Shown: positions 1,659 to 58,345 of the stretch, piece by piece
Numbering within the stretch: position 1 is the first letter of the stretch
Layout of the letters: each line of letters begins with the position of its first letter
Assembly (NCBI RefSeq): GCF_001428545.1
Contig: NZ_LMHZ01000003.1
Span: forward strand, 62,001-126,000
DNA: 64,000 nt
Source: Noviherbaspirillum sp. Root189
GTDB taxonomy: Bacteria > Pseudomonadota > Gammaproteobacteria > Burkholderiales > Burkholderiaceae_D
Direction: 5' to 3'
Program-made: the position numbers and the translations under genes
Notes under the pieces: generated by a model
The model's database searches: none
Seen by the model: only the letters and a program-made list of their open reading frames with translations
Told to the model about the DNA's origin: nothing

Positions 1659-1736
1659 GATGTCTCCTTGTCTTGTTCTGCTTTCAGTATTGTCAAACTG
1701 ACGACGTTGGAGAAGTCAAAAATCGTGATGGGGCCT

Positions 1737-1751
1737 ATCGATGACATGGAT
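1737..1751. promoter_or_regulatory. nod-box-like ATC-N9-GAT motif (weak)
   Basis: ATC at 1737-1739 and GAT at 1749-1751 with exactly nine bases between, upstream of the small membrane operon (start 1658). The outer bases do not extend the dyad to TATC/GATA, so this may be chance. Confidence 0.25.
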
Positions 1752-1931
1752 GGTTAAAGTGGACTGATCACTTCATTCGTCTGGCATGCCATTTTTCAAT
1801 CCAGGGTATCTGCATTCACAGTTTCTCAATGTTAACCATTTGCCTTCGATTCATCAGCGACGCAAAGCCGAAATGGAGACCATTGGGATATGTCGACATG
1901 CACTAGTCCGGGATTTTCCGCCACGGCGCGT

Positions 1932-2915
1932 TCAGGTAACGAGTGTTTCCGGCGCTGATATGCGCGCTTCGCTGTCCGCAGTTGCAATGGCCGTTGCTGA
2001 CGGCGAATCCTTCTTCGCATCACAAGCCTGCTTGGCAAGATTCCTCAACCACTGATGCGAGGGATCATTGTCAAAGAACCGGTTCCACTGCATCGCAAAT
2101 TCCATGGCCGGCAAGTCGAAGGGCAGCGGCAGCAGGCGTACCGGGTAATAGCGCGCAAACAGCCGCGCCAGGCGGGAATGCATGGTGGCGATCCGATTGG
2201 TGCCGATCACCATGTGGGGCAGGGTAGTGAAATTGTCGGTGGTGACCTCGATGCGACGCTCGTGCCCGGTGGCCTGAAGCACGACCTCTTCAAAGCTCAT
2301 CTGGCTGAAATGGCCGAACATTGTCGAGACATGTCCGAGCGACATATAGGTCTCCATGTTCAGCGTGTCGCCAATGGCGGTATTGCCGGTCCACACTACG
2401 CAACTATAGTCCTCGGTGAAGAGCACTTCCTTCGGATGCACGCCGCGAAGATATTGTTTCGGCATGATGATCAGGTCAATCTCTCCGCGTTCGATCGCTT
2501 CATGAAAAATTTCATCCGGCGCGGAGATTTCTATCTTGATGTTGGGAGCGACCATCGGCAACCGGCACGCCATTTCCGACAGCAGCACCGTCGTTACGTA
2601 GTCCGACGCGGTAATCTTGAAATTGCGGAAAACAGTTGCGGGATCGAAGGCGGGCTTGATTTCGATGGTTGCCTTGATCTGCAGCAGTACGTTGCGCACC
2701 GGGTCGATGAGGCTCAGCGCCAATGGCGTTAGCTCCATCGAGCGGCCGACGGGCACGAGCAATTCGTCGGCGAAGTATTCGCGCAAGCGGGAAAGGACGC
2801 CGCTGGTTGCAGACTGGCTGAGGTTAAGCCGGCGGCCTGCACGGGTGATGCTCTTTTCGAGCAGGAGCGCCTCGAGGGCGACCAGCAAGTTCAGGTCAAG
2901 CCGGTTAAAGCGCAT
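1932..2915 (-). CDS. LysR-type regulator, NodD-like (first of three)
   Basis: DNA-binding regulator of 327 residues, divergent from the hydrolase-dioxygenase operon at 3292 that it probably controls. The N-terminal winged helix (about residues 1-65, MRFNRLDLNLLVALEALL, then LSQSATSGVLSRLREYF) is typical of NodD-like LysR proteins. The rest is the periplasmic-binding-like inducer domain with NFTTLPHMVIGTNRIATMHSRLA, shared with the two paralogues at 20.3 and 23.2 kb. ATG 2915 has TGGAG six bases upstream. The C-terminus carries an extra Ala/Ser/Thr-rich tail of about 25 residues absent from the paralogues. NodD-like regulators commonly sense flavonoids or other aromatics; the inducer here is unknown. 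Confidence 0.92.
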   Translation of the reverse strand: MRFNRLDLNLLVALEALLLEKSITRAGRRLNLSQSATSGVLSRLREYFADELLVPVGRSMELTPLALSLIDPVRNVLLQIKATIEIKPAFDPATVFRNFKITASDYVTTVLLSEMACRLPMVAPNIKIEISAPDEIFHEAIERGEIDLIIMPKQYLRGVHPKEVLFTEDYSCVVWTGNTAIGDTLNMETYMSLGHVSTMFGHFSQMSFEEVVLQATGHERRIEVTTDNFTTLPHMVIGTNRIATMHSRLARLFARYYPVRLLPLPFDLPAMEFAMQWNRFFDNDPSHQWLRNLAKQACDAKKDSPSATAIATADSEARISAPETLVT

Positions 2916-2981: not shown

Positions 2982-3017
2982 GCCTGACGGCGACAAGCGG
3001 TACCGGGATTCATTTTA

Positions 3018-3034
3018 TGGATAGTACGTATCCA
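3018..3034. promoter_or_regulatory. inverted repeat TGGATA-N5-TATCCA
   Basis: A perfect six-base dyad with a five-base centre, flanked by partly symmetric A/T tracts, in the LysR/hydrolase intergenic region. It is a candidate operator. A second hairpin (CCCGGA-N4-TCCGGG) follows at 3050-3065. Confidence 0.4.
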
Positions 3035-3186
3035 GAAATGAAATGCTTTCCCGGAAGTATCCGGGTCAGAGCGCCATGTCCGAAAAATCAGGGTAACTTC
3101 GTTTTGGTTCTTCTCGACGCATCGTGCCACCAGCGGCCGACACACAGCCATTGCCTTCCCCGATACCGACCATCCGTCAAAACCAT

Positions 3187-3215
3187 TTTACCGTGGCAGG
3201 TACGTTCTCTATAGT
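3187..3215 (+). promoter_or_regulatory. sigma70-type promoter for the hydrolase operon
   Basis: TTTACC at 3187-3192, a 17-base spacer, and TATAGT at 3210-3215, about 76 bases before the hydrolase ATG. Good hexamer match and ideal spacing. Confidence 0.55.
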
Positions 3216-4452: not shown

Positions 4453-4491
4453 AGACCGGCGAGAGAAACACATGAACGAGAGGAGAGAACC

Positions 4492-5451: not shown

Positions 5452-5464
5452 ACCGTACGACGTC

Positions 5465-7067: not shown

Positions 7068-7100
7068 GCACACCCTAAAGCCGATTTTCCCGTGAGATGC

Positions 7101-7115
7101 ATCATGAATATCGAT
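7101..7115. promoter_or_regulatory. nod-box-like ATC-N9-GAT site
   Basis: ATC 7101-7103 and GAT 7113-7115, nine bases apart, about 140 bases upstream of the YCF48/RND operon and just after the preceding terminator. One side extends to GATA. Confidence 0.4.
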
Positions 7116-7254
7116 AGCCTTAATCTGCACAATCCATTTTTCAAATGCTGCCGGCGTCGTTATTCTCTTTCCTGCAATACCCGGATGGAGACTCCGGGAT
7201 GGTGCAGCCTGTGTTCCTGCGCAGTGCCTGCTGACCGTTCACGAACAAAATAGA

Positions 7255-10873: not shown

Positions 10874-11060
10874 CAAACCTTCACGGAACCGTAACGCTGC
10901 AAAATTTTCGGTATCCGCGCATGTCGGTGGCGGCAATGCCACGCATCGAAATAATCAATGCCTCGCTGCGGCTCAGGTTCCATATCATTGTCTCAAAGCA
11001 AGCGGCATGACATCACTGCCTCTTGATAACAATCCGGTTGCGGGAGTCAAGGAGAGGAAA

Positions 11061-12775: not shown

Positions 12776-12854
12776 GCATGGCATGGCATAAGGCTGGTTG
12801 TGGAACCATTGCAGTGAAAGCAGGGAGCCTCAGTCGCATTTAGTCCAGGCATGT

Positions 12855-12873
12855 GTATCGACTGACACGATAC
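12855..12873. promoter_or_regulatory. nod-box-like dyad GTATC-N9-GATAC upstream of fdhA
   Basis: GTATC and GATAC separated by nine bases (ATC-N9-GAT core 12857-12871), ending 21 bases before the putative -35 of fdhA. This is the position expected for a LysR activator and the longest-symmetry example in the window. It suggests that fdhA belongs to the NodD-like regulon (inference). Confidence 0.55.
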
Positions 12874-12894
12874 GACCCATCGAACGAATCGGTT

Positions 12895-12922
12895 TTGTTT
12901 GGTCGCCAGCCGCCTCTATAGT
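12895..12922 (+). promoter_or_regulatory. sigma70-type promoter for fdhA
   Basis: TTGTTT 12895-12900, a 16-base spacer, and TATAGT 12917-12922, about 84 bases before the ATG. The -10 context CTCTATAGTC is identical to that of the 3.2 kb promoter. Confidence 0.5.
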
Positions 12923-16711: not shown

Positions 16712-16792
16712 ACACGATCTCGTGCAGAGCGTGCAGAGCATGACGAAGCGCATGCAAGAGACGGATTGAACCGCCAGCTATCTGAAATATGG

Positions 16793-16840
16793 AGGCCTCG
16801 GATTGAAAGATTCGATTTTTCAGATCAGAGGCCTTTCTCT
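16793..16840 (+). terminator. nested hairpin, possible terminator of the amidohydrolase gene
   Basis: AGGCCTC (16793-16799) pairs with GAGGCCT (16828-16834). Inside it TGAAA pairs with TTTCA. A pyrimidine-rich TTCTCT follows. The T-run is poor, so it may instead be regulatory for the DUF1302 gene downstream. Confidence 0.4.
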
Positions 16841-16998: not shown

Positions 16999-18687
16999 AT
17001 GGCTTCAAAGGGAAAGACATCACATCGGCATTACCCGCAAAGGCAGTTTGTGCGGATGAAGCCGCGCGCCATCGCCATGGCAGTCGCGGCAATGCTGGCG
17101 GTGCCTGCGGCGTCCGCAATGGAAATCGACACCGGCAGTCCGGATCTCAAGCTCCGTTGGGACAACTCCTTCAAATACAGCGCCGGGGTACGTGTCAAGG
17201 ATCGCAATCCCGTTCTGATCGACGCCCCCAACGGCGCGAATGTTGACGACGGTGACCGCAATTTCGGCAAGGGTCTCATTTCCAATCGATTGGACTGGTT
17301 GACCGAAGCCGATCTCACCTACCGGAACTTCGGCGCGCGCGTCAGTGGCGCGGCCTGGTACGACTCCGTCTATAACCGGTCTACCGACAACAATTCCCCC
17401 TTTACCTACAACGCCATTTCCGTGCCTAACACGGAGTTTCCCGGCCCGACCCGCGATCTCCACGGGCGCAGGGGGGAACTGCTGGACGCTTTTGTGTTCG
17501 CCAAGGGGGAAATCGGCGACATGTCAGGCGTGGTCCGTCTCGGACGCCATGCGCTTGTGTACGGCGAAACGCTGTTCTTCGGCGCCAACGGCATCGCAGC
17601 CGCGCAGCAGCCGATTGATATCGTCAAGGCGCAATCGGTGCCGGGTACGCAATTCAAGGAACTGATTCGCCCGGTAGGACAGTTGTCCGGCCAACTGCAG
17701 GTTAATTCCAATGTTTCGGTGGGCGGCTATTACCAGTATCGATGGGAAGAATCGCTGCTGCCCGGCGTCGGCAGTTATTTCTCATCGGTCGACTTCCTGG
17801 GCACGGGGGCGGAACGCCTGTTGCTCGGTCCTGGCGCGGCCGATGTGCGTACCGCCGACCTCAAGGCACGCAATTCCGGCCAGGGCGGCCTGCAGCTGAA
17901 ATGGACACCGGAGGGCTCCGGTTTCGACTTTGGCTTCTATGCTGCGCAGTACCATGACAAGACGCCGCAGGTGATATTGCGCCCGGCCACATCGACCTAT
18001 GCACTGGCCTATCACGAGAATATTCGCACCTATGGCGTCAGCGCCACCACGACGGTGGGACCCGTGAACTTCTCCGCCGAAGCGTCGGTGCGTCGCAATG
18101 TGGCGTTGAGCAATACCGCAACCGCCGATCTGTTCCGCGTGGTGCCCGCTGCGTTCGGCGGCCCGGCCGCCGCAGCCGACAATCGCGACAATCCGACCTA
18201 TCCGGTAGGCCGCACGGCCCACCTGAATCTGTCTGCACTGGCGACGCTCAATCCGAATTTCATTGCGCAGGAATCGAGCCTTCTTGCGGAAGTTGCATGG
18301 AACCGGGTCACCAGCGTGACGCGCAATGCCGCCTTTCTGGACAGGAATGCAGAGCGCGACTCCTGGGGTTTCCGCGCACTGTACACACCGACCTACCGAC
18401 AGGCTATGCCCGGTCTGGACATCGATGTGCCGGTCAGCCTGAGCTATTTCCCGAAAGGGCGCTCCGGTGCCCTTGGTGTCGGTTTCGGACCTGACGGCGG
18501 TGGCGACATCAGTATCGGCATCAACGGCAATTATCAAAGCACCTGGAATTTCGGCATCAACTACACCCATTACTACGGTCCGGCGGCACCGGGCGCCGTA
18601 CTGGCCGGATTGGGTACCGTGTACACATATCAGCAGACTCTGAAGGACCGCGATTTCATATCGCTGACCGTGCGCCGCACGTTCTGA
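16999..18687 (+). CDS. DUF1302 family outer-membrane protein (first copy)
   Basis: 562-residue envelope protein. An N-terminal extension of about 20 residues precedes a signal peptide (about 20-45, AVAAMLAVPAASAME). The mature part is rich in alternating Gly/aromatic strands and ends in Phe (TVRRTF), as expected for an outer-membrane beta-barrel. Family members are found with DUF1329 and RND genes in hydrophobic-substrate degradation loci, and a role in passage of such compounds across the outer membrane is assumed. ATG 16999 has AAGAGGAGACG upstream. DUF1329 follows after 19 bases. The second copy at 51.2 kb shares most of the sequence pattern. Confidence 0.9.
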   Translation: MASKGKTSHRHYPQRQFVRMKPRAIAMAVAAMLAVPAASAMEIDTGSPDLKLRWDNSFKYSAGVRVKDRNPVLIDAPNGANVDDGDRNFGKGLISNRLDWLTEADLTYRNFGARVSGAAWYDSVYNRSTDNNSPFTYNAISVPNTEFPGPTRDLHGRRGELLDAFVFAKGEIGDMSGVVRLGRHALVYGETLFFGANGIAAAQQPIDIVKAQSVPGTQFKELIRPVGQLSGQLQVNSNVSVGGYYQYRWEESLLPGVGSYFSSVDFLGTGAERLLLGPGAADVRTADLKARNSGQGGLQLKWTPEGSGFDFGFYAAQYHDKTPQVILRPATSTYALAYHENIRTYGVSATTTVGPVNFSAEASVRRNVALSNTATADLFRVVPAAFGGPAAAADNRDNPTYPVGRTAHLNLSALATLNPNFIAQESSLLAEVAWNRVTSVTRNAAFLDRNAERDSWGFRALYTPTYRQAMPGLDIDVPVSLSYFPKGRSGALGVGFGPDGGGDISIGINGNYQSTWNFGINYTHYYGPAAPGAVLAGLGTVYTYQQTLKDRDFISLTVRRTF

Positions 18688-18706
18688 TACAACAGGAGAC
18701 AGAAAC

Positions 18707-20065
18707 ATGAAATTCAAGACTAGCCTGATCGCTGCGCTTATCGGTAGCGCCATGGGAATGTCCGGCATGTCCTTGGCGGGGGTGTCGGCCGACGAAGCCG
18801 CGCAGCTGGGCAAGACGCTCACGCCGCTGGGCGGCGAAAAAGCCGGCAACAAGGACGGTTCGATTCCGGCCTGGGATGGCGGCTATACGAAGCCGCTGCC
18901 CGGTTTCAAGAACGGCGAGCGCCGCGACCACGATCCGTTCGCCAGTGAAAAGCCGCTGTACACGGTCACCGCGAAGAACATGGACCAGTATGCCGACAAG
19001 CTGACCGACGGCACCAAGGCCATGCTGAAGAAGTATCCAAGCTATCGGCTGGACGTCTATCCCACCCATCGTACTGCGGCGGCTCCGCAATGGGTATATG
19101 AAAACACGCTGAAGAATGCTTCCCGTGCCAAGCTGGACGAAAAGGGGGTACCTGCCGGAGCGTTCGGCGGCATTCCGTTTCCCATCCCGAAGAACGGCCA
19201 GGAAGTGATGTGGAATTATCTGCTCCACTGGCGCGGAGCGGATTTCCATATCGATTTCCGTCACTATCTCATCACTTCCGATGGCAAGCCCGTGATGACG
19301 GTGGATGCGCAAGGCGAATTCAGCATGCCGTACTACTACCAGGAAACATCGCCTGACAAATGGAATGGCAATTATTGGAATATCCGCCTGATCAATGCCG
19401 GTCCGCCGGTGCGCGCCGGCGAGGCCATCAACGGCCGCCTGAATGTGGATTCGGATAAGGATCAGAGCTATGTCTATCTGGCCGGTCAGCGCCGTACACG
19501 AAAGCTGCCCAATGCCTGCTGCGACACGCCTACTCCCGCTACTGCAGGCGTCATGACGTTCGACGAACTGGAAGTGTGGTCCGGCCGACTGGATCGCTTC
19601 GACTGGAAACTGGTCGGCAAGAAGGAAGTGCTCATTCCCTACAATACCAACAAGTTGAACAAGCCGACGAACTCTGCGGATGTACTCGGCGCAAATCATC
19701 TTAATCCCGACCATGTGCGCTGGGAGCTCCATCGCGTGTGGGTGGTGGAGGCGAATCTGAAAGCGGGCCAGCGACATGTTGCGCCGAAGGGGGTGTACTA
19801 CGTTGACGAAGACAGCTGGCTTGCCGTGCTCGGCGATCGCTGGGACGCGAAGGGTCAGCTCTGGAAGAGCACCTGGCTGATGCCGATACTGATGCCCGAC
19901 CTGCCCGCCGTGACGCAGATTTCCTTCGGCTTCAATGATCTGCTTTCGAACACATGGTTTGCCGGCAACCTGATGAATGACAAGCAGTCGCAATACAAAA
20001 TCGTCACGCCGCATTTTCCGGACTCGCTCTTTTCACCGGACGCACTGTCCAGCAATGCACGCTGA
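18707..20065 (+). CDS. DUF1329 family exported protein (first copy)
   Basis: 452 residues with a signal peptide (about 1-25, LIGSAMGMSGMSLAG), then the family start VSADEAAQLGKTLTPLGGEKAGNKDG. The body has the conserved RRTRKLPNACCDTPTP stretch and many Trp/Tyr. The fold is thought to resemble periplasmic or outer-membrane LolB-like beta sheets that bind hydrophobic ligands (family knowledge, not proven here). It follows DUF1302 with CAGGAGACAG as ribosome site, so both are co-expressed, and the operon ends at a strong terminator (20111). Partner function with the DUF1302 barrel is inferred from this constant pairing, which recurs at 52.9 kb. Confidence 0.9.
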   Translation: MKFKTSLIAALIGSAMGMSGMSLAGVSADEAAQLGKTLTPLGGEKAGNKDGSIPAWDGGYTKPLPGFKNGERRDHDPFASEKPLYTVTAKNMDQYADKLTDGTKAMLKKYPSYRLDVYPTHRTAAAPQWVYENTLKNASRAKLDEKGVPAGAFGGIPFPIPKNGQEVMWNYLLHWRGADFHIDFRHYLITSDGKPVMTVDAQGEFSMPYYYQETSPDKWNGNYWNIRLINAGPPVRAGEAINGRLNVDSDKDQSYVYLAGQRRTRKLPNACCDTPTPATAGVMTFDELEVWSGRLDRFDWKLVGKKEVLIPYNTNKLNKPTNSADVLGANHLNPDHVRWELHRVWVVEANLKAGQRHVAPKGVYYVDEDSWLAVLGDRWDAKGQLWKSTWLMPILMPDLPAVTQISFGFNDLLSNTWFAGNLMNDKQSQYKIVTPHFPDSLFSPDALSSNAR

Positions 20066-20110: not shown

Positions 20111-20142
20111 AACCGGATGTCTGGAAAGGCATCCGGTTTTTT
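20111..20142 (+). terminator. rho-independent terminator of the DUF1302-DUF1329 operon
   Basis: AACCGGATG (20111-20119) pairs with CATCCGGTT (20130-20138) around a ten-base loop, followed by TTTTTT to 20142. Confidence 0.9.
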
Positions 20143-20288
20143 GTATTGCCGTTTTCGATAGCTCGAATCAAATTAAATCGTTTTAAGAATACATGGGCGT
20201 CGATTATCTTTCTCCTGAAGAAAACAGGCTGGTCGGATCACGGCGATCCAATGGCATGACCAGACCGGAAAATCATGGAGACAAGGCA

Positions 20289-21215
20289 ATGCGATTCCAA
20301 AAACTGGACTTGAACCTGTTGGTGGCACTCGATCTGCTTCTTGATGAAAAGAGCATCACCAGAACAGCAAAGAGATTGCATCTGAGTCAATCGGCGACGA
20401 GCAGCATTCTCGGACGCCTGCGTGAGTATTTCAATGACGAATTGCTGGTCAATGTCGGGCGCAACATGGTACCCACGGCGTTGGCGATCAGCCTGCAAAA
20501 ACCGGTTCGCCAGCTTGTGCTGCAAATTCAGGCGACGCTGGAGATCCGGCCCCATTTCATTGCAGCGGAATGCGAGCGGCATTTCCGCCTGATTGCTTCC
20601 GATTACACCACCAGTATTCTTCTGACGCGCGTGGCGCAACGCCTTCGAACGGAGGCGCCCAAGGTCACGATAGAAGTATCTCCGCCCTCACTTGATGCGG
20701 CCGAATACATCGGTCGTGGGGAAGCAGATTTCATGTTCGTACCGGAAGAGTTCATCTTGGAAGATTTCTCCGGCGAGGTCCTGCTGGAAGACACCTACAG
20801 CTGCGTGACTTGGGCAGGCAATGACTTGGTGGGAGAGTCGATCACCAGAGAGCAATACCTCGAAATGGGGCACGTCAGCGTGGAGTTCACCGGCCGTACG
20901 AAGTCTTTCGAACACTGGGTATTTGATAACGCACAGATCAAGAGACGAGTGGAGATCACCGCCACATCGTATAGTGCACTGCCGCAGCTATTGCTTGGGA
21001 CGGACCGGGTTGCCACCATGCACACCCGCTTGGCCAGATATCTTGCGGATTACTTTCCCATCCGCTGCCTGCCGTTGCCGATCGACGTACCCAAGATGAA
21101 AATGGTAATGCAGTGGAATGTGTATCAGGAGAAAGACCCCGCGCATCAATGGCTGCGCGCGGTGATGAAAGAGGTGGCGATGGAGCGCTGCCCCTTGGTG
21201 ACGGCATTCCCTTGA
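20289..21215 (+). CDS. LysR-type regulator, NodD-like (second of three)
   Basis: 308 residues. The start MRFQKLDLNLLVALDLLL at ATG 20289 is preceded by GGAGACAAGG; an upstream in-frame ATG at 20193 would add 32 residues and is unlikely because the paralogues begin at MRF. Winged helix about 1-65 (LSQSATSSILGRLREYF), effector domain after. It is much closer to the third copy at 23.2 kb than to the first. It lies upstream of the second VOC dioxygenase in the same direction and probably controls it through the sites at 21275-21316. The inducer is likely an aromatic or flavonoid-like compound. Confidence 0.92.
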   Translation: MRFQKLDLNLLVALDLLLDEKSITRTAKRLHLSQSATSSILGRLREYFNDELLVNVGRNMVPTALAISLQKPVRQLVLQIQATLEIRPHFIAAECERHFRLIASDYTTSILLTRVAQRLRTEAPKVTIEVSPPSLDAAEYIGRGEADFMFVPEEFILEDFSGEVLLEDTYSCVTWAGNDLVGESITREQYLEMGHVSVEFTGRTKSFEHWVFDNAQIKRRVEITATSYSALPQLLLGTDRVATMHTRLARYLADYFPIRCLPLPIDVPKMKMVMQWNVYQEKDPAHQWLRAVMKEVAMERCPLVTAFP

Positions 21216-21274
21216 TCTACCGGGGAGACCGGCCCCTGCGCATGGCCGCCGTACCAGGGAAGACGGCGTCTGGT

Positions 21275-21289
21275 ATCCATGGCGGTGAT
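21275..21289. promoter_or_regulatory. nod-box-like TATC-N9-GATA site upstream of the second VOC operon
   Basis: ATC 21275-21277 and GAT 21287-21289 with nine bases between, extended to TATC and GATA. It is immediately followed by a 20-base block (21297-21316) that recurs at 58168-58187 with a second ATC-N9-GAT at the same offset. Confidence 0.6.
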
Positions 21290-21296
21290 AACGGTG

Positions 21297-21316
21297 TTCA
21301 ATTTATTCGGCTTATC
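21297..21316 (+). repeat. 20-base promoter element shared with 58168-58187
   Basis: TTCAATTTATTCGGCTTATC, identical on the opposite strand at 58168-58187. In both places it lies between an ATC-N9-GAT site and the downstream gene and reads in that gene's direction, which points to a shared regulatory element. Confidence 0.7.
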
Positions 21317-21466
21317 GCAAGACACCGATTCGCCTAATATCCTTTCATGCATTCAGCACTCGTTCGGCAGTCCGTACAAGCCCGACGGTATGACAGTCAT
21401 GGCTCGGATCGAGAGCCATCCTGCACTGCATCCTGAACAATCCAACACTCGCGAGGAAAGGCACTC

Positions 21467-22537
21467 ATGGCAATTTATGGAATCAACGGCATCCACACCG
21501 TTCTGTACGGCGTTGACGACGTTGCGCTCTGCACCCGCTTTTTTGACGACTTCGGCTTGCCGCTGCTCGAAAAAAGCGACCAGCATGCACACTTTCTTCT
21601 GGACGAAGGCTCGAATGTCATCATCCGGCATATTTCCGATCCAGCCATCCCGAAATCAAAGCTTGTCGGCACCGGCGTTCAGGAAGTCATCTGGGGCGTG
21701 AATACCGAAGAAGGTCTGGCAAGGCTGCTGAAAGATCTTGGCCGCGACCGTGAAATCCGGATTGATGAAGAGGGCACCGCACATTGTTTCACCGATGACG
21801 GAATGGCGATCGGCTTCCGCATATTCCGGAAGAATCCGGTCGTGTCCAGTGTCGATCCGGCCAACTCGCCGGGCAATATCAACCGCGTCAACAAGCACCG
21901 CCGCTGGATTGCGCGCGCCCGGCCAAAAACTATTCAGCACGTCGTGTTCCAGGTGCCTGATACCGAAGCCTCCTGGACTTTCTACCGTGACCGCCTGGGA
22001 TTCAGGCTGTCGGATGTTCAGCGGACCTTCGGCATCTTTGGCCGCGCCGATGGCGCGCACGACCATCACAACATCTATTTTCTGAACGCCCACCTGCCGT
22101 TCCCCGGCCTGGACGGCAAGCCGCGTTTCGACCATGTTAATTACGGCGTGGACGACGTTGACGAAATCATGATCGGCGCGAATTACATGGAACGCAAGGG
22201 CTGGCCCAAGTCGGCCTGGGGTCTGGGCCGGCATCGCATTGCGTCCTCGCTCTTCATGTATTTGCCATGCCCGACGGGCGGTCAGGCGGAGTATGGAGCG
22301 GATTCCGATCATATCGATGACAACTGGGTCCCGCGTACCTGGAATCCGATGTTCGGCGCCTGGAGCTTCGTCACGAACATTCAGCCCTTCATGGTGGATG
22401 CGGCTTGGGATTTCGAAGTGGTCGATGGTTATACACCGTCCAGGCAAGCGCCTGCTCTCGTGCCGCCCACGGCTGATGCAGCGGCGCCCGAGCCCTCCAA
22501 CGATGCCATAGTTCCGGTGCCGGTCAGGCAGGCCTAA
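21467..22537 (+). CDS. VOC-family extradiol dioxygenase (second copy)
   Basis: 356-residue two-domain VOC protein. Metal ligands His158 (TIQHVVFQV), His223 (PRFDHVNYG) and Glu275 (GGQAEYGAD) give the 2-His-1-carboxylate iron site of type I extradiol dioxygenases. It is about 35 residues longer than the 4.5 kb copy because of a Pro/Ala-rich C-terminal tail (from about 325). ATG 21467 follows GAGGAAAGG. The NTF2-like gene starts 19 bases after the stop. It probably opens the ring made by the FAD monooxygenase encoded on the opposite strand at 24.3 kb. The N-terminal half carries His10 and other residues of a degenerate first domain. Confidence 0.88.
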   Translation: MAIYGINGIHTVLYGVDDVALCTRFFDDFGLPLLEKSDQHAHFLLDEGSNVIIRHISDPAIPKSKLVGTGVQEVIWGVNTEEGLARLLKDLGRDREIRIDEEGTAHCFTDDGMAIGFRIFRKNPVVSSVDPANSPGNINRVNKHRRWIARARPKTIQHVVFQVPDTEASWTFYRDRLGFRLSDVQRTFGIFGRADGAHDHHNIYFLNAHLPFPGLDGKPRFDHVNYGVDDVDEIMIGANYMERKGWPKSAWGLGRHRIASSLFMYLPCPTGGQAEYGADSDHIDDNWVPRTWNPMFGAWSFVTNIQPFMVDAAWDFEVVDGYTPSRQAPALVPPTADAAAPEPSNDAIVPVPVRQA

Positions 22538-23197: not shown

Positions 23198-24121
23198 ATG
23201 CGCTTCCAGAAGCTGGATTTAAATCTTCTACACGCGCTCGATATTCTTCTCGATGAGAAAAACATAACCAAGGCCGCGAAGCGGCTCCATTTGAGTCAAT
23301 CGGCCACCAGCAGCATACTCGGCCGGTTGCGTGAATACTTCGAGGATGAAGTGCTGGTCAATGTCGGACGCAACATGGTGCCGACGGCCCTTGCACTCAG
23401 CTTGCAAGACCCGGTTCACCAACTGTTGCTCCAAATTCAATCAACGCTGGAAATCAGGCCCACATTCACGCCTGAACAATGCGATCGGCATTTCCGCATC
23501 GTGGCTTCCGATTACACGACCAGCATCTTGCTCGCCCAGGTCGCGCAGCGACTGCGCAGCGAAGCACCGAAGGTTACATTTGAAATTATCCAGCCGTCGC
23601 AGGCAAGTGCGGATTACGTTATCCGTGGCGAAGCGGACATGCTATTCATACCGAGGGGTTATGCGCCGGAGGAATTGCAAGGAGAATTGCTGCTGGAAGA
23701 TTCATTTTGCTGTGTCGTCTGCGCGCGCAACGACCTTGTGGGCAACACCTTGACGATCGAACACTATCTGGCAATGGGACATGTCGTTACCCATTTCCCG
23801 GGCGCCCTGAGAACGTTCGAAGAACTGCATTTCAGCACGACAGGGTACAAGCGGCGCGTTGAAATCACAGTACCCAACTTTAACGCGGTGCCCCAGATGG
23901 TCATCGGAACCGACCGCATCGGCACCATGCATACCCGGCTTGCGCGAAAACTGGCTAACTATTTTCCAATTCGCCTGATGCCTGTACCGATCTCGTACCC
24001 TAAAACCCAGCAGATGATGCTGTGGCATCCTTACCTGGAAAAAGATCCGGTACATCAGTGGCTGCGTGGATTGATGCATGACGCAGCAAGGAATGAGCCG
24101 ATATTGCTGGAAATTAGTTAA
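23198..24121 (+). CDS. LysR-type regulator, NodD-like (third of three)
   Basis: 307 residues starting MRFQKLDLNLLHALDILL, with ATGGAGACAGC before ATG 23198. Winged-helix and effector domains are close to those of the 20.3 kb copy, including VNVGRNMVPTALA and GTDRIGTMHTRLARKLA, so the two look like a recent duplication. It is convergent with the minus-strand dehydrogenase-enolase-kinase-FAH-monooxygenase operon and downstream of the VOC2 operon. The AT-rich leader (23041-23190) lacks a clear ATC-N9-GAT site. It may control the minus-strand operon or act redundantly with its paralogue. Confidence 0.92.
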   Translation: MRFQKLDLNLLHALDILLDEKNITKAAKRLHLSQSATSSILGRLREYFEDEVLVNVGRNMVPTALALSLQDPVHQLLLQIQSTLEIRPTFTPEQCDRHFRIVASDYTTSILLAQVAQRLRSEAPKVTFEIIQPSQASADYVIRGEADMLFIPRGYAPEELQGELLLEDSFCCVVCARNDLVGNTLTIEHYLAMGHVVTHFPGALRTFEELHFSTTGYKRRVEITVPNFNAVPQMVIGTDRIGTMHTRLARKLANYFPIRLMPVPISYPKTQQMMLWHPYLEKDPVHQWLRGLMHDAARNEPILLEIS

Positions 24122-29952: not shown

Positions 29953-30251
29953 GAGGGTCTCCATATTGTTCGATCAACGTCCGACACCCCGGGCGCCGGT
30001 CATTGCTTGAGCATGGAGCGAGTATATTTTTCTGCCGTGCGATTGAAGAGTGAATTTTTCAGAAAGGGCCAAGTGCAAAAATTGATAGCAGGCCACCTGC
30101 CGGCATCAATCATCCGTATCAACCCCCGTATCCATCGCTTGTGCAAGCCCGGATCATCGGCTGGCGGCCCGCTTCCTTCTACCTGATCGCGCAAGGCGGG
30201 GAGGAATGAATAATTCCGATAGCCGGTATCGGCGGCGCCGAATGGTCGGAT

Positions 30252-31235
30252 TCAGCGGCGCTGCGTACGGCCGCGCTTGCGGAATTCGCTCGGGGTTGTC
30301 CCGGTTTTCTTCAGAAATGCCTTCCTGAAAGCGCTTTCCGATTGATACCCGACGCTGGCCAGGATTTCACCGATTGACCGGTCGCTGTTTGCCAGTGCGT
30401 CCCGCGCCATTGTTACCCGCCATTCAGTGAGATAGTCGATGGGAGACTGTCCGGCACATTCATTGAATCGCTGAGCGAAGGCGGAACGCGACATGCCTGA
30501 CTGCTCAGCCAGTCCCTCGACCGTCCAGGCATGCTGGGGGCGCTGATGAATCGCCTGCAAGGCTTTGCGGATCTGCGGGTCGAACAGTGCGCGCAGCCAG
30601 CCTGGGGCATGCTGGCGTTCCTGAATGATGTATTCGCGCAGAAAGGAGATGAACAGGAGTTCGGCGAGTTCGTTGGCCAACGCCATGTAGCCCGGAGTGC
30701 TGCTCGCTTCTTCCACGGTAAGGAAGTCCAGCGCGGTGCGGATGAAGGGAGTCGCGCCATGCTGGCCGCCGCGCAGCACCAGGGTTTGCGGCAGCGCGGC
30801 CATGAGCCCGAGATGGCGTTGTCCGCGGAAGCGGTAGGCCAGGGCGAGCGCACGAGTGGTATCGCCGCCGGCGCCCAGGTGAACGTGAATGGGTTTGGAG
30901 GTTTTCGCCGAGGCGTCGAAGTTGGGTAACTGCTGCTGTTGCCAGATATCGCCGACCAAGGTGAGCTTCGCATCCGGCGACGATGCGATGGTGCTCGCAC
31001 CGCCGTGCGGCAGCAGCAGGGTATCTCCAGGCAGAAGCGTGACCGGGTCCTTGCCATTCTGCAAAGCGATCGCCCGGCCTTCAATAATGCAGTAGCAGTA
31101 CGCCGGTTCGAAGCGGTCGGCGTCCTTGATCTCCAGCCCCCAGGGCGCCCGCAGGTGAAAATTGACGAAAGCGGTCGCCTCCACCCTGATGGACAGCAGG
31201 ACATCACTGAGCAGATCCACGTCTTCGTTTTCCAT
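30252..31235 (-). CDS. AraC-family regulator with cupin-type sensor domain
   Basis: 327 residues: an N-terminal cupin-like ligand domain (about 1-185, with EPAYCYCIIEG and LPGDTLLLPHG) and two C-terminal helix-turn-helix motifs (about 220-320, LAEQSGMSRSAFAQRF and VGYQSESAFRKAFLK). It is encoded just downstream of vanA on the same strand and may control the vanA/vanB promoters, where direct repeats occur (32419-32441). AraC proteins usually bind direct repeats. A perfect 12-base hairpin sits between vanA and this start. It is related in layout to the AraC gene at 59.5 kb. Confidence 0.9.
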   Translation of the reverse strand: MENEDVDLLSDVLLSIRVEATAFVNFHLRAPWGLEIKDADRFEPAYCYCIIEGRAIALQNGKDPVTLLPGDTLLLPHGGASTIASSPDAKLTLVGDIWQQQQLPNFDASAKTSKPIHVHLGAGGDTTRALALAYRFRGQRHLGLMAALPQTLVLRGGQHGATPFIRTALDFLTVEEASSTPGYMALANELAELLFISFLREYIIQERQHAPGWLRALFDPQIRKALQAIHQRPQHAWTVEGLAEQSGMSRSAFAQRFNECAGQSPIDYLTEWRVTMARDALANSDRSIGEILASVGYQSESAFRKAFLKKTGTTPSEFRKRGRTQRR

Positions 31236-31286: not shown

Positions 31287-32339
31287 TCATGCAGCGACGG
31301 ACCCCGCGGCCTGTTCCTTATCGATCATTGCGGACAGCACGCGGCGTGTGCGGATGGCCGGGCCGTCTCCGGGCAGGAGTACCGGCTTGAGCGAAAACAG
31401 GTCGTTGGTGCCCATCAGCTCGGCGCAAGCGACAATCATCTTTTCGTCTTCGTTCTGGAAAACATCACTGATGCCGGCCTTGAGAATAGCATCGAGCTCC
31501 GCACTGTCACGCTTGGTGTCGCGCGCTTGCGCCCAGAAATAGTGGGTGCTGTTTTCCGTCTCCGGCGTCAACAGGTGAGCGGTCGGGATGGACGGCCCTG
31601 CACTGACGGGTCCGTTAGACGGGTACATGCCGACATCCAGCATCAGGTTCGACGGCGCATCCCAGCGCATGTGGGCGCGCATGTCGGCCACGGAAGGCGC
31701 CTCGCCATTCCAGAGCATCTGAAACAGCGGTGACATCGGCATGTTCTTGTTGGTATGCATGGAATACACGGTGTTGCCATCCTGTTTCAGCTCGCGGATT
31801 TCCTGGAAATCCGGCGGCAGCGGCCCGCTCCCCGTCAGGAAGGGATGAAGATAAGGCACATGGCTCAGGTCCATCAGGTTATCGGTTATCAATTCATAAT
31901 GGGCGCGGACCGGCAGATGACCGCGGATGACACGCCAGCCATCCTGACTGGCGATTTCATGCACGTCGGGAATGGCGTCCGGGTTGGCCAGGCTGCTCTC
32001 ACCCATCCAGATCCAGAGCACGTCGTAGCGCTCTACCATCGGGTACGCAGGCACGCGGGCGGCCTTGGGGATGGCGCCGTCGCCATGCGGATTATGGCTG
32101 CACGCACCGGTCTGATCGAAGCGGAGCCCATGATAGGGACATTCGATACAGCCATCCTTGACCTTGCCCATCGCCAGCGGCGCGAAGCGGTGCGGGCAGC
32201 GGCCGCCGATCGCCACCGCCGCGCCGTCTTCCTTGCGGTACATGACCACGGGTTCGCCGAGGAAAGTGCGGCCGATCGGCTTGTCGGAAAGTTCGTCGGT
32301 CCAGCCGGCGCAATACCATGCGTTTCTCAGAAATGCCAT
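31287..32339 (-). CDS. vanA: vanillate O-demethylase-type oxygenase subunit
   Basis: 350-residue Rieske oxygenase. Cluster ligands are C48-P-H50 and C67-P-Y-H70; the mononuclear iron motif is DNLMDLSHVPYLHP. The start MAFLRNAWYCAG is the standard VanA N-terminus, and ATG 32339 has CAAGGAGACGAC upstream; the frame is open much further 5' but that part is antisense to vanB. The reaction is removal of a methyl group from a methoxylated aromatic as formaldehyde. Divergent from vanB rather than in the usual vanAB operon. Symbol given from overall VanA resemblance; the true substrate may be another methoxy-aromatic. Confidence 0.85.
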   Translation of the reverse strand: MAFLRNAWYCAGWTDELSDKPIGRTFLGEPVVMYRKEDGAAVAIGGRCPHRFAPLAMGKVKDGCIECPYHGLRFDQTGACSHNPHGDGAIPKAARVPAYPMVERYDVLWIWMGESSLANPDAIPDVHEIASQDGWRVIRGHLPVRAHYELITDNLMDLSHVPYLHPFLTGSGPLPPDFQEIRELKQDGNTVYSMHTNKNMPMSPLFQMLWNGEAPSVADMRAHMRWDAPSNLMLDVGMYPSNGPVSAGPSIPTAHLLTPETENSTHYFWAQARDTKRDSAELDAILKAGISDVFQNEDEKMIVACAELMGTNDLFSLKPVLLPGDGPAIRTRRVLSAMIDKEQAAGSVAA

Positions 32340-32708
32340 GTCGTCTCCTTGAGTTGAATTTGATCTGCAGGGACCGAGCGGCAGGCCGTCCCGGTATTTC
32401 TTGGTTCTTGTCGACCTTATAGCTTTAGTCATAGCTTTAGTTTTAAAGCGGTCGGAAATGCAGAAGACTATATAGGCGAGATTCTGGATAAACAAGTCGT
32501 TATGGTCCAATAAACCGATGCAATCGTCCAGGAATGTTGCGCGAGCAGTCGCTGCATTCTCACCACGCCCGACGTTTATCCATTGGCCTCGCAAATAGAT
32601 GGCATTGCGAAAATCGGCTTTACGGCATTGCCCGTTTTTCTCTATTCTGCGATTGCCTGGTGCAATAAGCCACGTGGAATGCAATAAAAAAGGAAAGAAG
32701 GAGGCCTG
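32340..32708. other. vanA/vanB divergent promoter region
   Basis: 369 bases, AT-richer than the flanking genes. It holds a tandem 12-base repeat and an inverted repeat (32419-32448) and long A/T tracts near 32640-32700. No gene. Confidence 0.6.
32419..32448. promoter_or_regulatory. tandem ATAGCTTTAGT repeats plus GCTTTA-N4-TAAAGC dyad
   Basis: ATAGCTTTAGT occurs at 32419-32429 and 32431-32441, one and a bit helical turns apart. The second copy also forms a dyad with TAAAGC (32433-32448). This is a candidate AraC operator between vanA and vanB. A similar dyad is at 59410-59427 beside the other AraC gene. Confidence 0.5.
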
Positions 32709-33665
32709 ATGAGTACTATGGAAGTGCGAGTGATTCGCAAGCGCGTCGAAGCTGAAGACATCGCCAGTTTTGAACTGTCCAGCCTGGACGGCTCGCCGCT
32801 GCCGGCGTTCAGCGCGGGCTCGCATATCGATGTCCATGCGCCAGGCGGCGTGATTCGGCAATACTCGTTGTGCAACGATCCCGGCGAGACCCATCGCTAC
32901 CTGATCGCGGTGCTGCGTGATCCGGCGTCGCGCGGCGGATCGGTGGCCATGCACGACAGCGTACAGGAGGGCGACGTCATCCAGATCAGCGCTCCAAGAA
33001 ATCATTTTTCCCTGGTGCCGGCGCAACGCAGCCTGCTGCTGGCCGGCGGCATTGGCGTCACGCCCATTCTGTGCATGGCCGAACGCCTGGCAAAGACCGG
33101 GGCTGATTTCGAGATGCATTACTGTACGCGTTCGCCGGAGCGTACCGCGTTCATCGACCGCATCCGCAAATGCGGCTTCGCCGGCGCGGTGCAGTTCCAC
33201 CATGACAGCGGTCCGGCCGAGCAGAAGCTGGACATGGCGCAATTGCTCCGTCAATGCGGTCCCGAAACGCATTTGTACGTCTGCGGACCCGGAGGATTCA
33301 TCGAGCATGTGACCAAGACCGCTGAAGCACAAGGCTGGGGAAAGGACCGCATCCACTTCGAATATTTCGCCGCCGCGCCGGTGGACACCAGCGGCGATCA
33401 GGCGTTTGAAGTCACGATCGCCAGCACCGGCAGGACCATCCTCATTCCGTCTGACAAGAGCGTGGCGCAGGTTCTGGAAGACGAAGGGATGAGCATTCCC
33501 GTGTCCTGTGAGCAGGGCGTTTGCGGCACCTGCATTACCCGCGTGCTCGGCGGCGTGCCCGATCACCGCGACATGTACTTTACCGATGATGAGAAGGCGA
33601 AGAACGACCAGTTCACGCCATGCTGTTCGCGAGCCAGAAGCGGGCCGTTGGTTCTTGACCTTTAA
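32709..33665 (+). CDS. vanB: vanillate O-demethylase-type reductase
   Basis: 318-residue phthalate-dioxygenase-reductase family protein passing electrons from NAD(P)H to a Rieske oxygenase. An FMN domain comes first (RQYSLCND, about 54), then an NAD domain (LLAGGIGVTPI, about 110), then a C-terminal plant-type [2Fe-2S] domain (CEQGVCGTC plus a later Cys near 302). ATG 32709 has AAGAAGGAGG upstream. It is the only intact oxygenase reductase in the window and so may serve VanA and the four other Rieske oxygenases. The ABC importer follows at 33.9 kb. Confidence 0.92.
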   Translation: MSTMEVRVIRKRVEAEDIASFELSSLDGSPLPAFSAGSHIDVHAPGGVIRQYSLCNDPGETHRYLIAVLRDPASRGGSVAMHDSVQEGDVIQISAPRNHFSLVPAQRSLLLAGGIGVTPILCMAERLAKTGADFEMHYCTRSPERTAFIDRIRKCGFAGAVQFHHDSGPAEQKLDMAQLLRQCGPETHLYVCGPGGFIEHVTKTAEAQGWGKDRIHFEYFAAAPVDTSGDQAFEVTIASTGRTILIPSDKSVAQVLEDEGMSIPVSCEQGVCGTCITRVLGGVPDHRDMYFTDDEKAKNDQFTPCCSRARSGPLVLDL

Positions 33666-33726
33666 GCACGGCAAGCAGAGTGCAGCGCGCGATACCCGGC
33701 AGCGGGTTCGCGCTTAATGGCGATGT

Positions 33727-33741
33727 ATCGGGCCGAACGAT
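33727..33741. promoter_or_regulatory. nod-box-like ATC-N9-GAT motif
   Basis: ATC 33727-33729 and GAT 33739-33741 with nine bases between, 179 bases upstream of the ABC importer genes. Only one half extends to TATC; moderate. Confidence 0.3.
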
Positions 33742-33796
33742 GCCGGGTATCCATAAAAACATTGGCTTTCGAGTGACGCTAGTACAGCCGGTCAAC

Positions 33797-39568: not shown

Positions 39569-39902
39569 CTGTTGCCATCCTGTAGAGTAATTGACGAGCA
39601 CGATCCAACTGCGGCTTCTGCTGCTGCCTAACGGATCTTACTAGCGGGGCAATGCATGGAAAAGTCGCATGTTGTGATGCACGCTATCGATACCATCAAT
39701 ACGACGGATTGCGTTGGCGCTGCGAAGCTTGCCTCGAACTATCCATTTTCTGGATGGCGCCGATCACCGAATTCCATGCAGGACGCACCGGCAAGACACA
39801 GTAAGATCAGCATTGCCCGGGTGCTGCAGGGATTGCATCCATTGCATCCATTGCAGCTATTGCCCTTGAGGCCTCTTCCAGAAACCTACGAAAGAATGAC
39901 GC
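39569..39902. other. intergenic region with 9-base tandem repeats
   Basis: 334 bases between divergent FAH and thioesterase genes. It contains ATTGCATCC twice plus a degenerate third copy (39832-39858) and one unextended ATC-N9-GAT motif (39695-39709). No gene. Confidence 0.5.
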
Positions 39903-46353: not shown

Positions 46354-46709
46354 ACGCCGCAGGCATGACCGGCAGGATTTAAAGCTGATTGTTGATTGAA
46401 TACGACGTATCGCAAGATGAAAAAAGCCCGCTTCCATGGAAGCGGGCCGAAGCCATTCTGGAGACAACCAGACAATGGGAGAGACAAGCTGCCAAGTCGT
46501 CGCCTGAACGCCCCCCGAAAATCCCATCTGAGGAAGCGCGCGACACCTGATGCATCTTAGGGAATGCCGCTGCTGCGGACAAGTCGATAAGCTGGATAGC
46601 TGCTATCACTGCAGGCAATTCCCGGTGTCCCTATGAAGCGTTGAACTTTTCGCCGCCGTCATGTTGCTCAAGTGTCTTGGCCCGCACGATATCGCCTTGG
46701 TCTCGGACT
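46354..46709. other. intergenic region with a minus-strand terminator
   Basis: 356 bases between thiolase (+) and the second GntR gene (-). Apart from the terminator at 46420-46447 I see no feature; short frames are not convincing. Confidence 0.6.
46420..46447 (-). terminator. rho-independent terminator on the minus strand
   Basis: The perfect 22-base palindrome 46426-46447 is followed on the minus strand by six T (46425-46420). It would end the transcript of the GntR gene at 46.7-47.5 kb. Confidence 0.8.
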
Positions 46710-48680: not shown

Positions 48681-48766
48681 GCCCGATGTGCCGGCACTAT
48701 TTGAATATATCGATGCCTGGTATCTGGCACTCGGATCAACGGGAATTGCTCATTAAGGAAGGGCTT

Positions 48767-48776: not shown

Positions 48777-48935
48777 TCGGCATACGGTCGGCAGGAACTT
48801 CCAGGCACCGTCATCGCAAGTCCCGCTGAAAATCGGGCTTACGGTTTTCCGGATGGCTGGCATCTTGAAAATCGCGTTCTCACGGCGCAGGGCAGTCTTT
48901 ATCATCCGCTCAGAATCAATCAATTTGAAAAACCC

Positions 48936-51005: not shown

Positions 51006-51173
51006 TGCTATTGGCCTTTCCGATACGTGGCTTCCAATCTATCAATTTTACGTAGGGACGCCAGCTGTTTATTCTGTGCCGGCAGGTCATGGCATACAAA
51101 ACGATATGCCCTACAAAAAATATCTGTCGGAAGTATCGAAGAGGTACGACAGCAATTCAATGAGGAGATAGGA

Positions 51174-56967: not shown

Positions 56968-58056
56968 TTATTCTTGCTCTTTTTTAAGCGAAGCTTCCAG
57001 TTTGCGTCGCGACTGGATGGCTGCTTGGTCAGCCTGCACAATAATCTCGGGATAGTCCAAGTGCCGCGGATCGCGCAAGATCATCTCCTGGACTTTTTCA
57101 AGAATGAACTTATCCTCAGCATAGCCCTTGGGCACATGCTGACGCATACCTTCCAGATATTCGGGCGACAATTCCGTATCCCATCCCATGAACCAGGTGT
57201 AACGGAACCGGGTCGGACTTTCGGGAGTCGTCAAATGCATGATTTGAAGCGTCCATTTATCGCGCTCACCAGGCTTCGGATTCGGATGGCGAATTTCGAG
57301 GAAGCCAACATGCGCTGCTGGCGTGTAGGAAGTGCTCCAATTGGTTCGCTCGGCTGGCGTCTGCATGCCGAGCCCTGTGGGAATGCCGTAGATTGCTGGC
57401 AATGGCGCCGCCGCAAACTCTTGACGGAAGGTGACGGTTGAATCCGTAACTTCGACTTTGGGGGGATTCGTCCAATCCGACGCACCAATTGTAGTCGGAT
57501 GCACATGCGGAATGTGCGTCAGATCGAGAACATTCTCTTTCAGGAGCTGATAGTTGGCATTGACTTCACTAAAGCCGTTGACCCACCACCATTTACCATT
57601 CGTCAACCAAGACGTATCAATCGGCAGAGGCACACCTTCTGCCTTGGCAGCGTCGCCCATCCAGATCCACACTATGCCGTCTTTCTCCTGCAGCGGATAA
57701 GCCTTTACCTTTGCCTTGCTCGGAATAGTTTTTTGCGAAGGAATTTCGACGCATTGGCCCTCAGGGCAAAACTTGAATCCATGATAGGGGCAGACGATGT
57801 TATCCCCGTCGATTCGTCCTTCGGACAAGGGGGCCCAACGATGGGGGCAGCGGTTATCCAAAGCCACGGCGCTGCCATCCTGCTTGCGGTACAGCACAAC
57901 TGGCTCATCGAGCAGCCAGAGGCCAAGTGGCTTTTCATGAGACACGTCTTTCGACAAGGCGGCCACCCACCATAGATTGCGTGGATAGTTCGCAGGCTGG
58001 GTAAAGCCGGTGCCGGTGTCGATGCGTGTAAGCGGGAATTCGACAGGCTGGTTCAT
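56968..58056 (-). CDS. Rieske oxygenase, aromatic
   Basis: 362-residue terminal oxygenase. Cluster ligands are C70-P-H72 and C89-P-Y-H92; the iron motif is ENVLDLTHIPHVHP. It has a longer N-terminus than the VanA group (about 25 residues before NLWWVAAL), and its C-terminal half differs from the other four oxygenases. ATG 58056 has GAGGAGATAATTG. Upstream lies the element shared with the VOC2 promoter (58168-58209). Base composition is more AT-rich than in the genes before 56 kb. Substrate unknown; no adjacent reductase. Confidence 0.9.
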   Translation of the reverse strand: MNQPVEFPLTRIDTGTGFTQPANYPRNLWWVAALSKDVSHEKPLGLWLLDEPVVLYRKQDGSAVALDNRCPHRWAPLSEGRIDGDNIVCPYHGFKFCPEGQCVEIPSQKTIPSKAKVKAYPLQEKDGIVWIWMGDAAKAEGVPLPIDTSWLTNGKWWWVNGFSEVNANYQLLKENVLDLTHIPHVHPTTIGASDWTNPPKVEVTDSTVTFRQEFAAAPLPAIYGIPTGLGMQTPAERTNWSTSYTPAAHVGFLEIRHPNPKPGERDKWTLQIMHLTTPESPTRFRYTWFMGWDTELSPEYLEGMRQHVPKGYAEDKFILEKVQEMILRDPRHLDYPEIIVQADQAAIQSRRKLEASLKKEQE

Positions 58057-58167
58057 CAATTATCTCCTCATAAATGGATTATGTTCACAATCGCAAAGCG
58101 GCGGGTAATTCGGGGCCAGCATCCTGCACGAATACATGGAGGCATGTTAGGTTAATGTACGATGTAC

Positions 58168-58187
58168 GATAAGCCGAATAAATTGAA
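58168..58187 (-). repeat. 20-base promoter element shared with 21297-21316
   Basis: Exact reverse complement of 21297-21316, located 109 bases upstream of the Rieske start and reading towards it. Similarity continues into the ATC-N9-GAT site at 58195-58209. Confidence 0.7.
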
Positions 58188-58194
58188 GTGCTGT

Positions 58195-58209
58195 ATCACA
58201 GGCGCAGAT
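58195..58209. promoter_or_regulatory. nod-box-like TATC-N9-GATA site
   Basis: ATC 58195-58197 and GAT 58207-58209, nine bases apart, extended to TATC/GATA. It has the same spacing to the 20-base element as the site at 21275. Confidence 0.6.
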
Positions 58210-58345
58210 ACCTTATCTCGGACATCAAACGGATCGCACGCTTCGCAATTCCTGCAGGACCGACACCATTCTGTTGCACCGATTTTTTATCAGGTTGCGT
58301 ATCCAGGCGGTGCGCCGCGTTTGTTCGGTGGAACCCGTCCCAAGA

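Follow-up and report, generated by a model that had tools for sequence, protein, structure and literature searches.

The window, the whole 64-kb stretch of Noviherbaspirillum sp. Root189 DNA analyzed here, carries a gene cluster with three LysR genes, a VOC (glyoxalase-fold) ring-cleavage dioxygenase-like gene and four Rieske/VanA_C oxygenases; going by the usual role of this family, the latter may carry out demethylation or hydroxylation steps (Table 1). Two copies of a promoter element had been predicted here, each reading toward a different catabolic gene, and Pfam confirmed both genes: the VOC dioxygenase-like gene lies downstream of copy 1 and a Rieske/VanA_C oxygenase gene downstream of copy 2.

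As predicted, the 20-base block at 21297–21316 is the exact reverse complement of 58168–58187. These are its only two matches in the window at up to three mismatches, and 100 dinucleotide shuffles contained none. A TATC-N9-GATA dyad was likewise found at equal offset in both copies, which therefore both contain the ATC-N9-GAT palindrome characteristic of nod boxes. By itself this dyad is loose, with 3 exact matches in the window versus 0.3 expected and, in a wider form allowing up to three mismatches, 38 versus 28 expected. The similarity between the copies is real but had been understated: a gapless alignment runs for ~84 bp (21272–21355 against 58212–58129), reaching the -10 box, with the conserved blocks GGTATC, GTGATA, TTCAATTTATTCGGCTTATCG, CCTAAYAT (the -10 box) and CATGYATTC in that order. 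Identity amounts to 59 of 90 compared positions and is clustered in these blocks, the spacers having diverged while remaining equal in length.

Table 1 Regulators, oxygenase genes, nod-box-like sites and -10 boxes located in the window
Feature	Position	Strand	Remarks
LysR-A, NodD-clade regulator	20289..21215	+	
LysR-B	23198..24121	+	64% identical to LysR-A
LysR-C	1932..2915	-	50% identical to LysR-A
VOC (glyoxalase-fold) ring-cleavage dioxygenase-like gene	21467..22537	+	Pfam
Rieske/VanA_C oxygenase gene	56968..58056	-	Pfam
Copy 1, candidate nod-box-like operator (ATC-N9-GAT-N7-TTC...)	21272..21321	+	upstream of VOC dioxygenase gene; 21.3 bits leave-pair-out
-10 box TAATAT, copy 1	21335..21340	+	60 nt past A of ATC
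Copy 2, candidate nod-box-like operator	58163..58212	-	upstream of Rieske/VanA_C oxygenase gene; 20.1 bits leave-pair-out
-10 box TAACAT, copy 2	58144..58149	-	60 nt past A of ATC
Nod-box-like site	1705..1754	-	two small ORFs downstream; leave-one-out 28.7 bits; no TAnnnT at +60/61
Nod-box-like site	3147..3196	+	alpha/beta hydrolase-VOC-FAD monooxygenase operon (3292-6957) downstream; -10 at +60
Nod-box-like site	7098..7147	+	YCF48-like/MMPL operon (7255-10826) downstream; -10 at +60; weak, leave-one-out 15.4 bits
Nod-box-like site	10920..10969	+	chemoreceptor (MCP) gene 11061 downstream; core changed (GTC, AAT); -10 at +60
Nod-box-like site	12854..12903	+	alcohol dehydrogenase gene 13007 downstream; -10 at +60
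Nod-box-like site	16777..16826	+	DUF1302/DUF1329 genes (17056-20065) downstream; core changed (GAG); -10 at +60
Nod-box-like site	20142..20191	+	LysR-A gene downstream (possible autoregulation); -10 at +60
Possible site, uncertain	30196..30245	-	upstream of 29964-24292 operon; core changed (TTC); no -10 at +60/61
Nod-box-like site	32579..32628	+	Fer2/DmmA-like reductase gene 32709-33665 downstream; core changed (AAT); -10 at +61
Possible site	33724..33773	+	NMT1/ABC transporter operon 33920 downstream; weak, leave-one-out 14.0 bits; no -10 at +60/61
Nod-box-like site	39654..39703	-	FAH-family hydrolase gene 39568-38582 downstream; best genome-wide R1 score; -10 at +60
Nod-box-like site	39738..39787	+	FlK-like thioesterase gene 39999 downstream; weak, leave-one-out 14.4 bits; -10 at +61
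Nod-box-like site	46573..46622	-	terminator 46448-46425 downstream; -10 at +60
Nod-box-like site	48690..48739	-	Rieske/VanA_C gene 48584-47538 downstream; weak, leave-one-out 15.3 bits; -10 at +60
Weaker nod-box-like site	48837..48886	+	SMP-30-like gene 48936 downstream; core changed (TAC); -10 at +60
Nod-box-like site	51007..51056	+	DUF1302/DUF1329/MFS operon 51174-55588 downstream; -10 at +60

The LysR proteins of the cluster belong to the NodD clade

LysR-A is 35–40% identical to NodD sequences; with the listed proteins annotated as NodD, identity is 37–39% across 91–94% of its length. The genome contains nine LysR matches at E ≤ 1e-12, namely the three paralogues of the cluster and six proteins with 25–29% identity to LysR-A. 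In a midpoint-rooted tree of 29 LysR proteins, from which a NodD2 with a truncated start and one remote LysR were omitted, LysR-A, -B and -C group together (support 99/98) inside a larger group (100/97) that contains NodD, LysRs adjoining VOC orthologues and the LysR encoded at an fde-like locus (see below). NahR does not belong to this group, and neither do the genome's six remaining LysRs. Thus, all three paralogues are members of the NodD clade, and the tree bears out the NodD-like label that had been given to the LysR genes at 20.3 and 23.2 kb (LysR-A and LysR-B).

A family of sites with a fixed distance to the -10 box

The pair is part of a larger family with the layout ATY-N9-GAT-N7-WTC-...-(AATC.ATTT). 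The core ATY-N9-GAT-N7-WTC has 16 matches in the 8.7 kb of the window that are intergenic by our own gene map, 4 in its coding DNA and 2 in the intergenic contig flanks outside the window, while the other 80 combinations of spacer lengths gave 0–6 intergenic matches each. The count of two copies in the original prediction was therefore correct for the pair but too low for the element, as 14 further intergenic places have the same core, most of them 100–260 bp upstream of a gene. Of these 16 unselected intergenic matches, 11 have TAnnnT at a distance of 60–61 nt from the A of ATY. None of the 4 coding matches, the 4 matches beyond the window or the 31 intergenic matches of the other 80 spacings has it (background 1.7–1.9%). 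A -10 box at +60/61 places the dyad center at -65, and the usual position of a LysR recognition site is about -65. Because ATC-N9-GAT contains T-N11-A, the sites have the form of LysR-type promoters, with a T-N11-A dyad centered at -65 and a sigma-70 -10 box. Chance as the origin of the element was rejected on the basis of the shuffles, the spacing scan and the -10 position test. No Rfam family was found in the window at gathering scores.

A weight matrix, the columns of which end 43 nt after the A of the core, was built from 12 sites, leaving out 3008, 3020/3044, 16802 and 1727/1751. The matrix added six sites; five exceed 15.8 bits, the highest score in 20 Markov-shuffled versions of the 138-kb contig, and the sixth, 48840, lies below this maximum at 10.2 bits (17.8 bits by leave-one-out). 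One non-training position in the 138 kb reached at least 20 bits: 3008(+), upstream of the 3292 operon. When each site was scored with itself left out, 11 of the 16 sites other than the pair were outscored by no non-site position, and the five weak ones (7101, 33727, 39741, 48736 and 48840) were outscored only by intergenic DNA of the cluster. Both copies of the pair still score as family members when the matrix is trained without them (Table 1). The family hence numbers ~18 sites in the 64-kb cluster, 13 strong and 5 weaker. Exact ATY-N9-GAT is retained in 13 of the 18 listed sites, and TTC replaces ATC as the third half-site in only three (21275, 51010 and 58209). TAnnnT lies at +60 in 13 and at +61 in 2 and is absent at 1751, 30242 and 33727; this count of 15/18 is not fully independent, as the aligned -10 boxes were already in view before the 12 seeds were chosen and also when 10923, 32582 and 48840 were added, and the unselected figure is the 11 of 16 given above.

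Within the family, the pair at 21275 and 58209 are the closest two members. Their common proximal half departs from the AATC.ATTT of the other sites, retaining only part of AATC.ATTTT (ATTCGGCTTATC), and their proximal block contains 21 identical bases absent from the remaining sites.

The ferredoxin-reductase-like (Fer2/DmmA) gene at 32709–33665 (+) had been missed in the initial gene calling and was revealed by the motif at 32582. A long minus-strand open frame (31287–33566) masks this gene, and a Rieske oxygenase and the reductase appear to be divergently transcribed. The strong site at 46619 (-) has no gene downstream; its neighbors are a thiolase gene on one side and a GntR-type gene on the other. 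An intrinsic terminator (46448–46425) is located ~100 nt past the predicted start of this site, and the minus strand of 46622–46425, which has no Rfam match, may possibly encode a short RNA (predicted at 46547–46425) under the same control as the other sites. Behind the site at 1705..1754 are two minus-strand ORFs, 1658–1521 (45 aa), which is partly hydrophobic by eye, and 1509–1297 (70 aa), which has no Pfam match. Between LysR-C and the 3292 operon, a near-perfect palindrome at 3005–3047, GGATTCATTTTATGGATAGTACGTATCCAGAAATGAAATGC, scores in both orientations and is possibly an autoregulatory site. No site was detected upstream of LysR-B and several other genes of the cluster.

The sites are confined to the cluster

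We next describe searches with R1, a sequence-only covariance model of 50 columns built from the 18 sites (left out were 3008(+), 3044(-), 30086(-), 39777(-), 15405(+), 1786(+) and 16802(+)), the E-values of which are rough. Across the whole 6.15-Mb genome, the 18 training sites ranked first, with E from 4.8e-5 to 0.06. Such a ranking of its own training sites is circular, but the absence of other sites is not: the best non-training place, among the 150 of 1158 first-look candidates that were scored, reached E 0.69. Neither 72 kb of contig flanks nor 50 kb of plasmid NAH7 contained anything at E ≤ 10.

Among 145 genomes of the family, more than two R1 matches at E ≤ 0.05 were present in this genome only; 25 others had one or two, versus ~7 expected. 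Among 369 genomes of the class, more than two matches at E ≤ 0.02 were again found in this genome only, and one or two in nine others. At up to three mismatches, the 20-base block of the pair occurs at its two places alone in the 6.15 Mb (90 contigs) of this genome, and it had no match in 59 other genomes of the genus, family and order. The original prediction had named a widespread intergenic repeat as the finding that would speak against it. For this genome that explanation was rejected, as there is no further copy at up to three mismatches and R1 found no comparable site beyond the cluster among the candidates scored.

Kinship with the nod box

R1, which was trained on the promoters of the window alone, matches sites on the symbiotic plasmids of Rhizobium and Sinorhizobium, where the matched sequences carry CATCCAAACAATCGATTTTAC or variants of it. 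Rhizobium phaseoli gave two matches (E 4.2e-5 and 2.8e-4), the second located 382 bp upstream of the annotated nodB, and Sinorhizobium meliloti pSymA gave three (1.5e-6, 1.2e-3 and 1.8e-3), of which one is arranged back to back with a nodD-like gene. Weaker matches came from R. jaguaris and S. fredii (0.014 and 0.017). An AATC.ATTTT proximal half is present in several window sites and is common to the matches on the symbiotic plasmids. We also compared the site at 7098..7147 with a nod-box consensus, and it agreed at 30 of 41 informative positions; this served as a first lead only, and our nod-box claim is based on R1 and the symbiotic plasmids.

According to PMC5596368, the nod box is a 47-bp region with ATC-N9-GAT. 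The window sites share with the nod box of NodD this dyad, a further ATC seven bases on and, in several sites, the AATC.ATTTT proximal half. They differ in that ~18 are present in 64 kb, in the degeneracy of the proximal half and in preceding catabolic and transport genes rather than nodulation genes. Since the Pfam-named genes downstream are catabolic, transport, chemoreceptor and regulatory, none of them a nodulation gene, we refer to the sites as nod-box-like.

Related loci in other bacteria

Thirteen loci, from Pseudomonas, Paraburkholderia, Burkholderia, Rubrivivax, Rhizobium, Hoeflea and others, contain a VOC relative. R1 marked eight sites in six of these loci (Pseudomonas, Rhizobium, Hoeflea and Burkholderia; E 2.3e-4 to 0.065) and had no match in the other seven. 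Seven of the eight sites are closely upstream of VOC, FAH-like or FAD-monooxygenase genes, seven of the eight have TA at +60/61, and NodD-clade LysR genes are located near matching sites in other genera. When the 13 genomes were searched in full, 10 of them yielded R1 matches at E ≤ 0.5, 27 in total, most of which are not close to VOC, FAH-like or FAD-monooxygenase genes. In Pseudomonas sp. PB101, a stretch of 8 kb contains four weak matches (E 0.18–0.46) next to genes of the kinds seen in the window, for LysR, VOC, hydrolase, reductase and FAD monooxygenase. Three near-identical elements of PB101, AGGTATCGCGWTTGSCGATA...ATCCC...CGCGATTAGTCA, and one similar (L116, L123, L126 and L128) form another multi-copy set. 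Within the order, 2 of 398 other genomes contain a VOC orthologue at E ≤ 1e-60 (44–45% identical), and neither shows a clear site.

In three Burkholderia/Paraburkholderia loci, the weight matrix detected an ATT-N9-AAT version with equal spacing. It reads ATT-N9-AAT-N7-ATT...AATCAAGTTGA at L045 9761, L047 9749 and 7211, and L048 9709, and the LysRs of these loci form a separate sub-group. The changed half-sites and the separate sub-group may possibly reflect co-evolution of protein and operator.

One locus of a relative in the same family, L087, has a NodD-clade LysR gene divergent from an operon, with a nod-box-like site between them and a -10 box at +60. The window genes 3292 (hydrolase), 4492 (VOC), 5827 (FAD monooxygenase) and 40379 (cyclase) are 77, 69, 62 and 70% identical to L087 genes. 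The gene order of L087 resembles that of the fde operon, and we infer its fde identity from this likeness; the 62–77% identity of the window genes refers to these fde-like genes.

Comparison with known catabolic systems

FdeR, the regulator of fde (naringenin degradation), reportedly binds a rhizobial nod box. The title of Wassem 2017 describes a NodD-like LysR (FdeR) over flavonoid-degrading genes in Herbaspirillum seropedicae, and according to PMC10799723, a 60-bp stretch between fdeR and fdeA is protected by FdeR, and the FdeR-DNA complex changes in response to naringenin, chrysin and daidzein. The cluster has in common with FdeR/fde a NodD-like LysR and the enzyme kinds FAD monooxygenase and glyoxalase-fold dioxygenase. 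By contrast, fde is one operon with a divergent regulator, whereas the window contains ~18 sites and three LysR paralogues, along with four Rieske/VanA_C oxygenases and additional genes for transport and a chemoreceptor.

According to PMC11069340, the Variovorax homologue of fdeE is an FAD monooxygenase and that of fdeC a glyoxalase, the target of these fde enzymes being the naringenin A-ring. The same paper describes ifc of Variovorax sp. V35 as one daidzein-induced cluster with an fdeC-like glyoxalase, an fdeE-like FAD monooxygenase and an alpha/beta hydrolase, all of which have counterparts in the window. Regulation of ifc is not described in the main text of PMC11069340, from which the terms 'LysR', 'nod box' and 'promoter' are absent. 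The likeness to ifc is at the level of the described enzymes. The naphthalene plasmid NAH7 provides a further example of LysR-type control of aromatic catabolism, by NahR. This type of regulation is shared with the cluster, but NahR lies outside the group of NodD and the window LysRs and R1 found nothing at E ≤ 10 in the 50 kb of NAH7 searched, and a NahR-type system was rejected as the nearest kind. A catabolic nod-box regulon did not appear among the titles listed in a literature survey of nod-box regulons outside nodulation.

A putative plant-polyphenol regulon

The motif family, its spacing and confinement, the matches on symbiotic plasmids, the NodD-clade LysRs and the sites beside some orthologues are computed results. 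We consider it highly probable, from these sequence comparisons, that the element serves as a LysR-type operator-promoter with the layout of a nod box and that the cluster represents a multi-operon NodD-like regulon for plant-polyphenol catabolism, an expanded relative of FdeR/fde. The single regulon of the original prediction, shared under NodD-like LysR proteins, is well supported at the sequence level by the layout, the -65 dyad, the NodD clade and the sites in 6 of 13 loci. Its proposed scope, ring hydroxylation and ring cleavage, was far too small, as candidate sites are also found in front of genes for transport, the chemoreceptor and LysR-A.

In the mechanism that we propose, one or more of LysR-A, -B and -C would probably bind the ATC-N9-GAT dyad centered at -65, and LysR would probably also contact the promoter-proximal half, from about -50 to -30. 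The inducer would probably be an aromatic plant compound, a flavonoid-type polyphenol; the substrate class is probably flavonoid-type plant polyphenol as well, because of the fde-like genes and the fde/FdeR literature. Inducer-bound LysR would then help sigma-70 RNA polymerase to initiate transcription at the -10 box, which lies 60 nt further downstream, such that oxygenases, ring-cleavage enzymes, hydrolases, transport, chemoreceptor and LysR-A would be switched on together via the ~18 sites.

The division of labor among the paralogues could be sharper than this. The pair, perhaps together with 51010, might form a small sub-regulon of one LysR paralogue while the other paralogues read other sites, which we regard as conceivable but rather unlikely. 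There are three paralogues, the TTC third half-site is found only at 21275, 51010 and 58209, and the identical promoter-proximal half, special to the pair, may mark a sub-regulon; yet the leave-pair-out score groups both copies with the other sites, and no sequence feature here separates the sites of the paralogues. It is improbable that the pair merely go back to one promoter region that was recently duplicated and owe their likeness to common descent rather than to the needs of a regulator. Although the two copies are mutually closest and have a 21-base identical proximal block not found in the other listed sites, their identity falls in blocks (dyad halves, proximal block and -10) separated by diverged spacers of equal length, and nine other unselected core matches of the window combine the dyad and the third half-site with the same distance to a -10 box. 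Duplication may nevertheless be the reason why the pair is closest. Finally, a site for another regulator, such as the AraC-type (30252–31235 and 59545–60555) or GntR-type proteins encoded in the cluster, is very improbable given the nod-box layout and -65 centering, the R1 matches on symbiotic plasmids, including the one next to a nodD-like gene, and the NodD-clade LysR genes near matching sites in other genera.

A NodD-like regulator of flavonoid degradation, FdeR, is already known; what appears to be new here, judged from the DNA, is the many promoters, the three paralogous regulators and the confinement to one large cluster. The preferred reading, a NodD-like plant-polyphenol regulon, links a switch of symbiosis signaling with the control of catabolic genes outside nodulation, and does so across several genera of proteobacteria. 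More tentatively, the nod box could at root be a catabolic operator: NodD-clade LysRs with nod-box-like, multi-promoter regulons would have governed plant-polyphenol breakdown in free-living proteobacteria, and rhizobia would have recruited the sensor together with the operator for symbiosis. If so, this cluster would keep an elaborate catabolic form, with its three paralogues and ~18 sites. The cluster bears on how paralogues divide a regulon and on whether nod signaling arose from flavonoid degradation, and its ~18 candidate promoters and three sensors offer material for the study of DNA and inducer recognition by NodD-type proteins. Having its -10 box at a fixed distance, the motif may further aid the discovery of plant-polyphenol catabolic genes.
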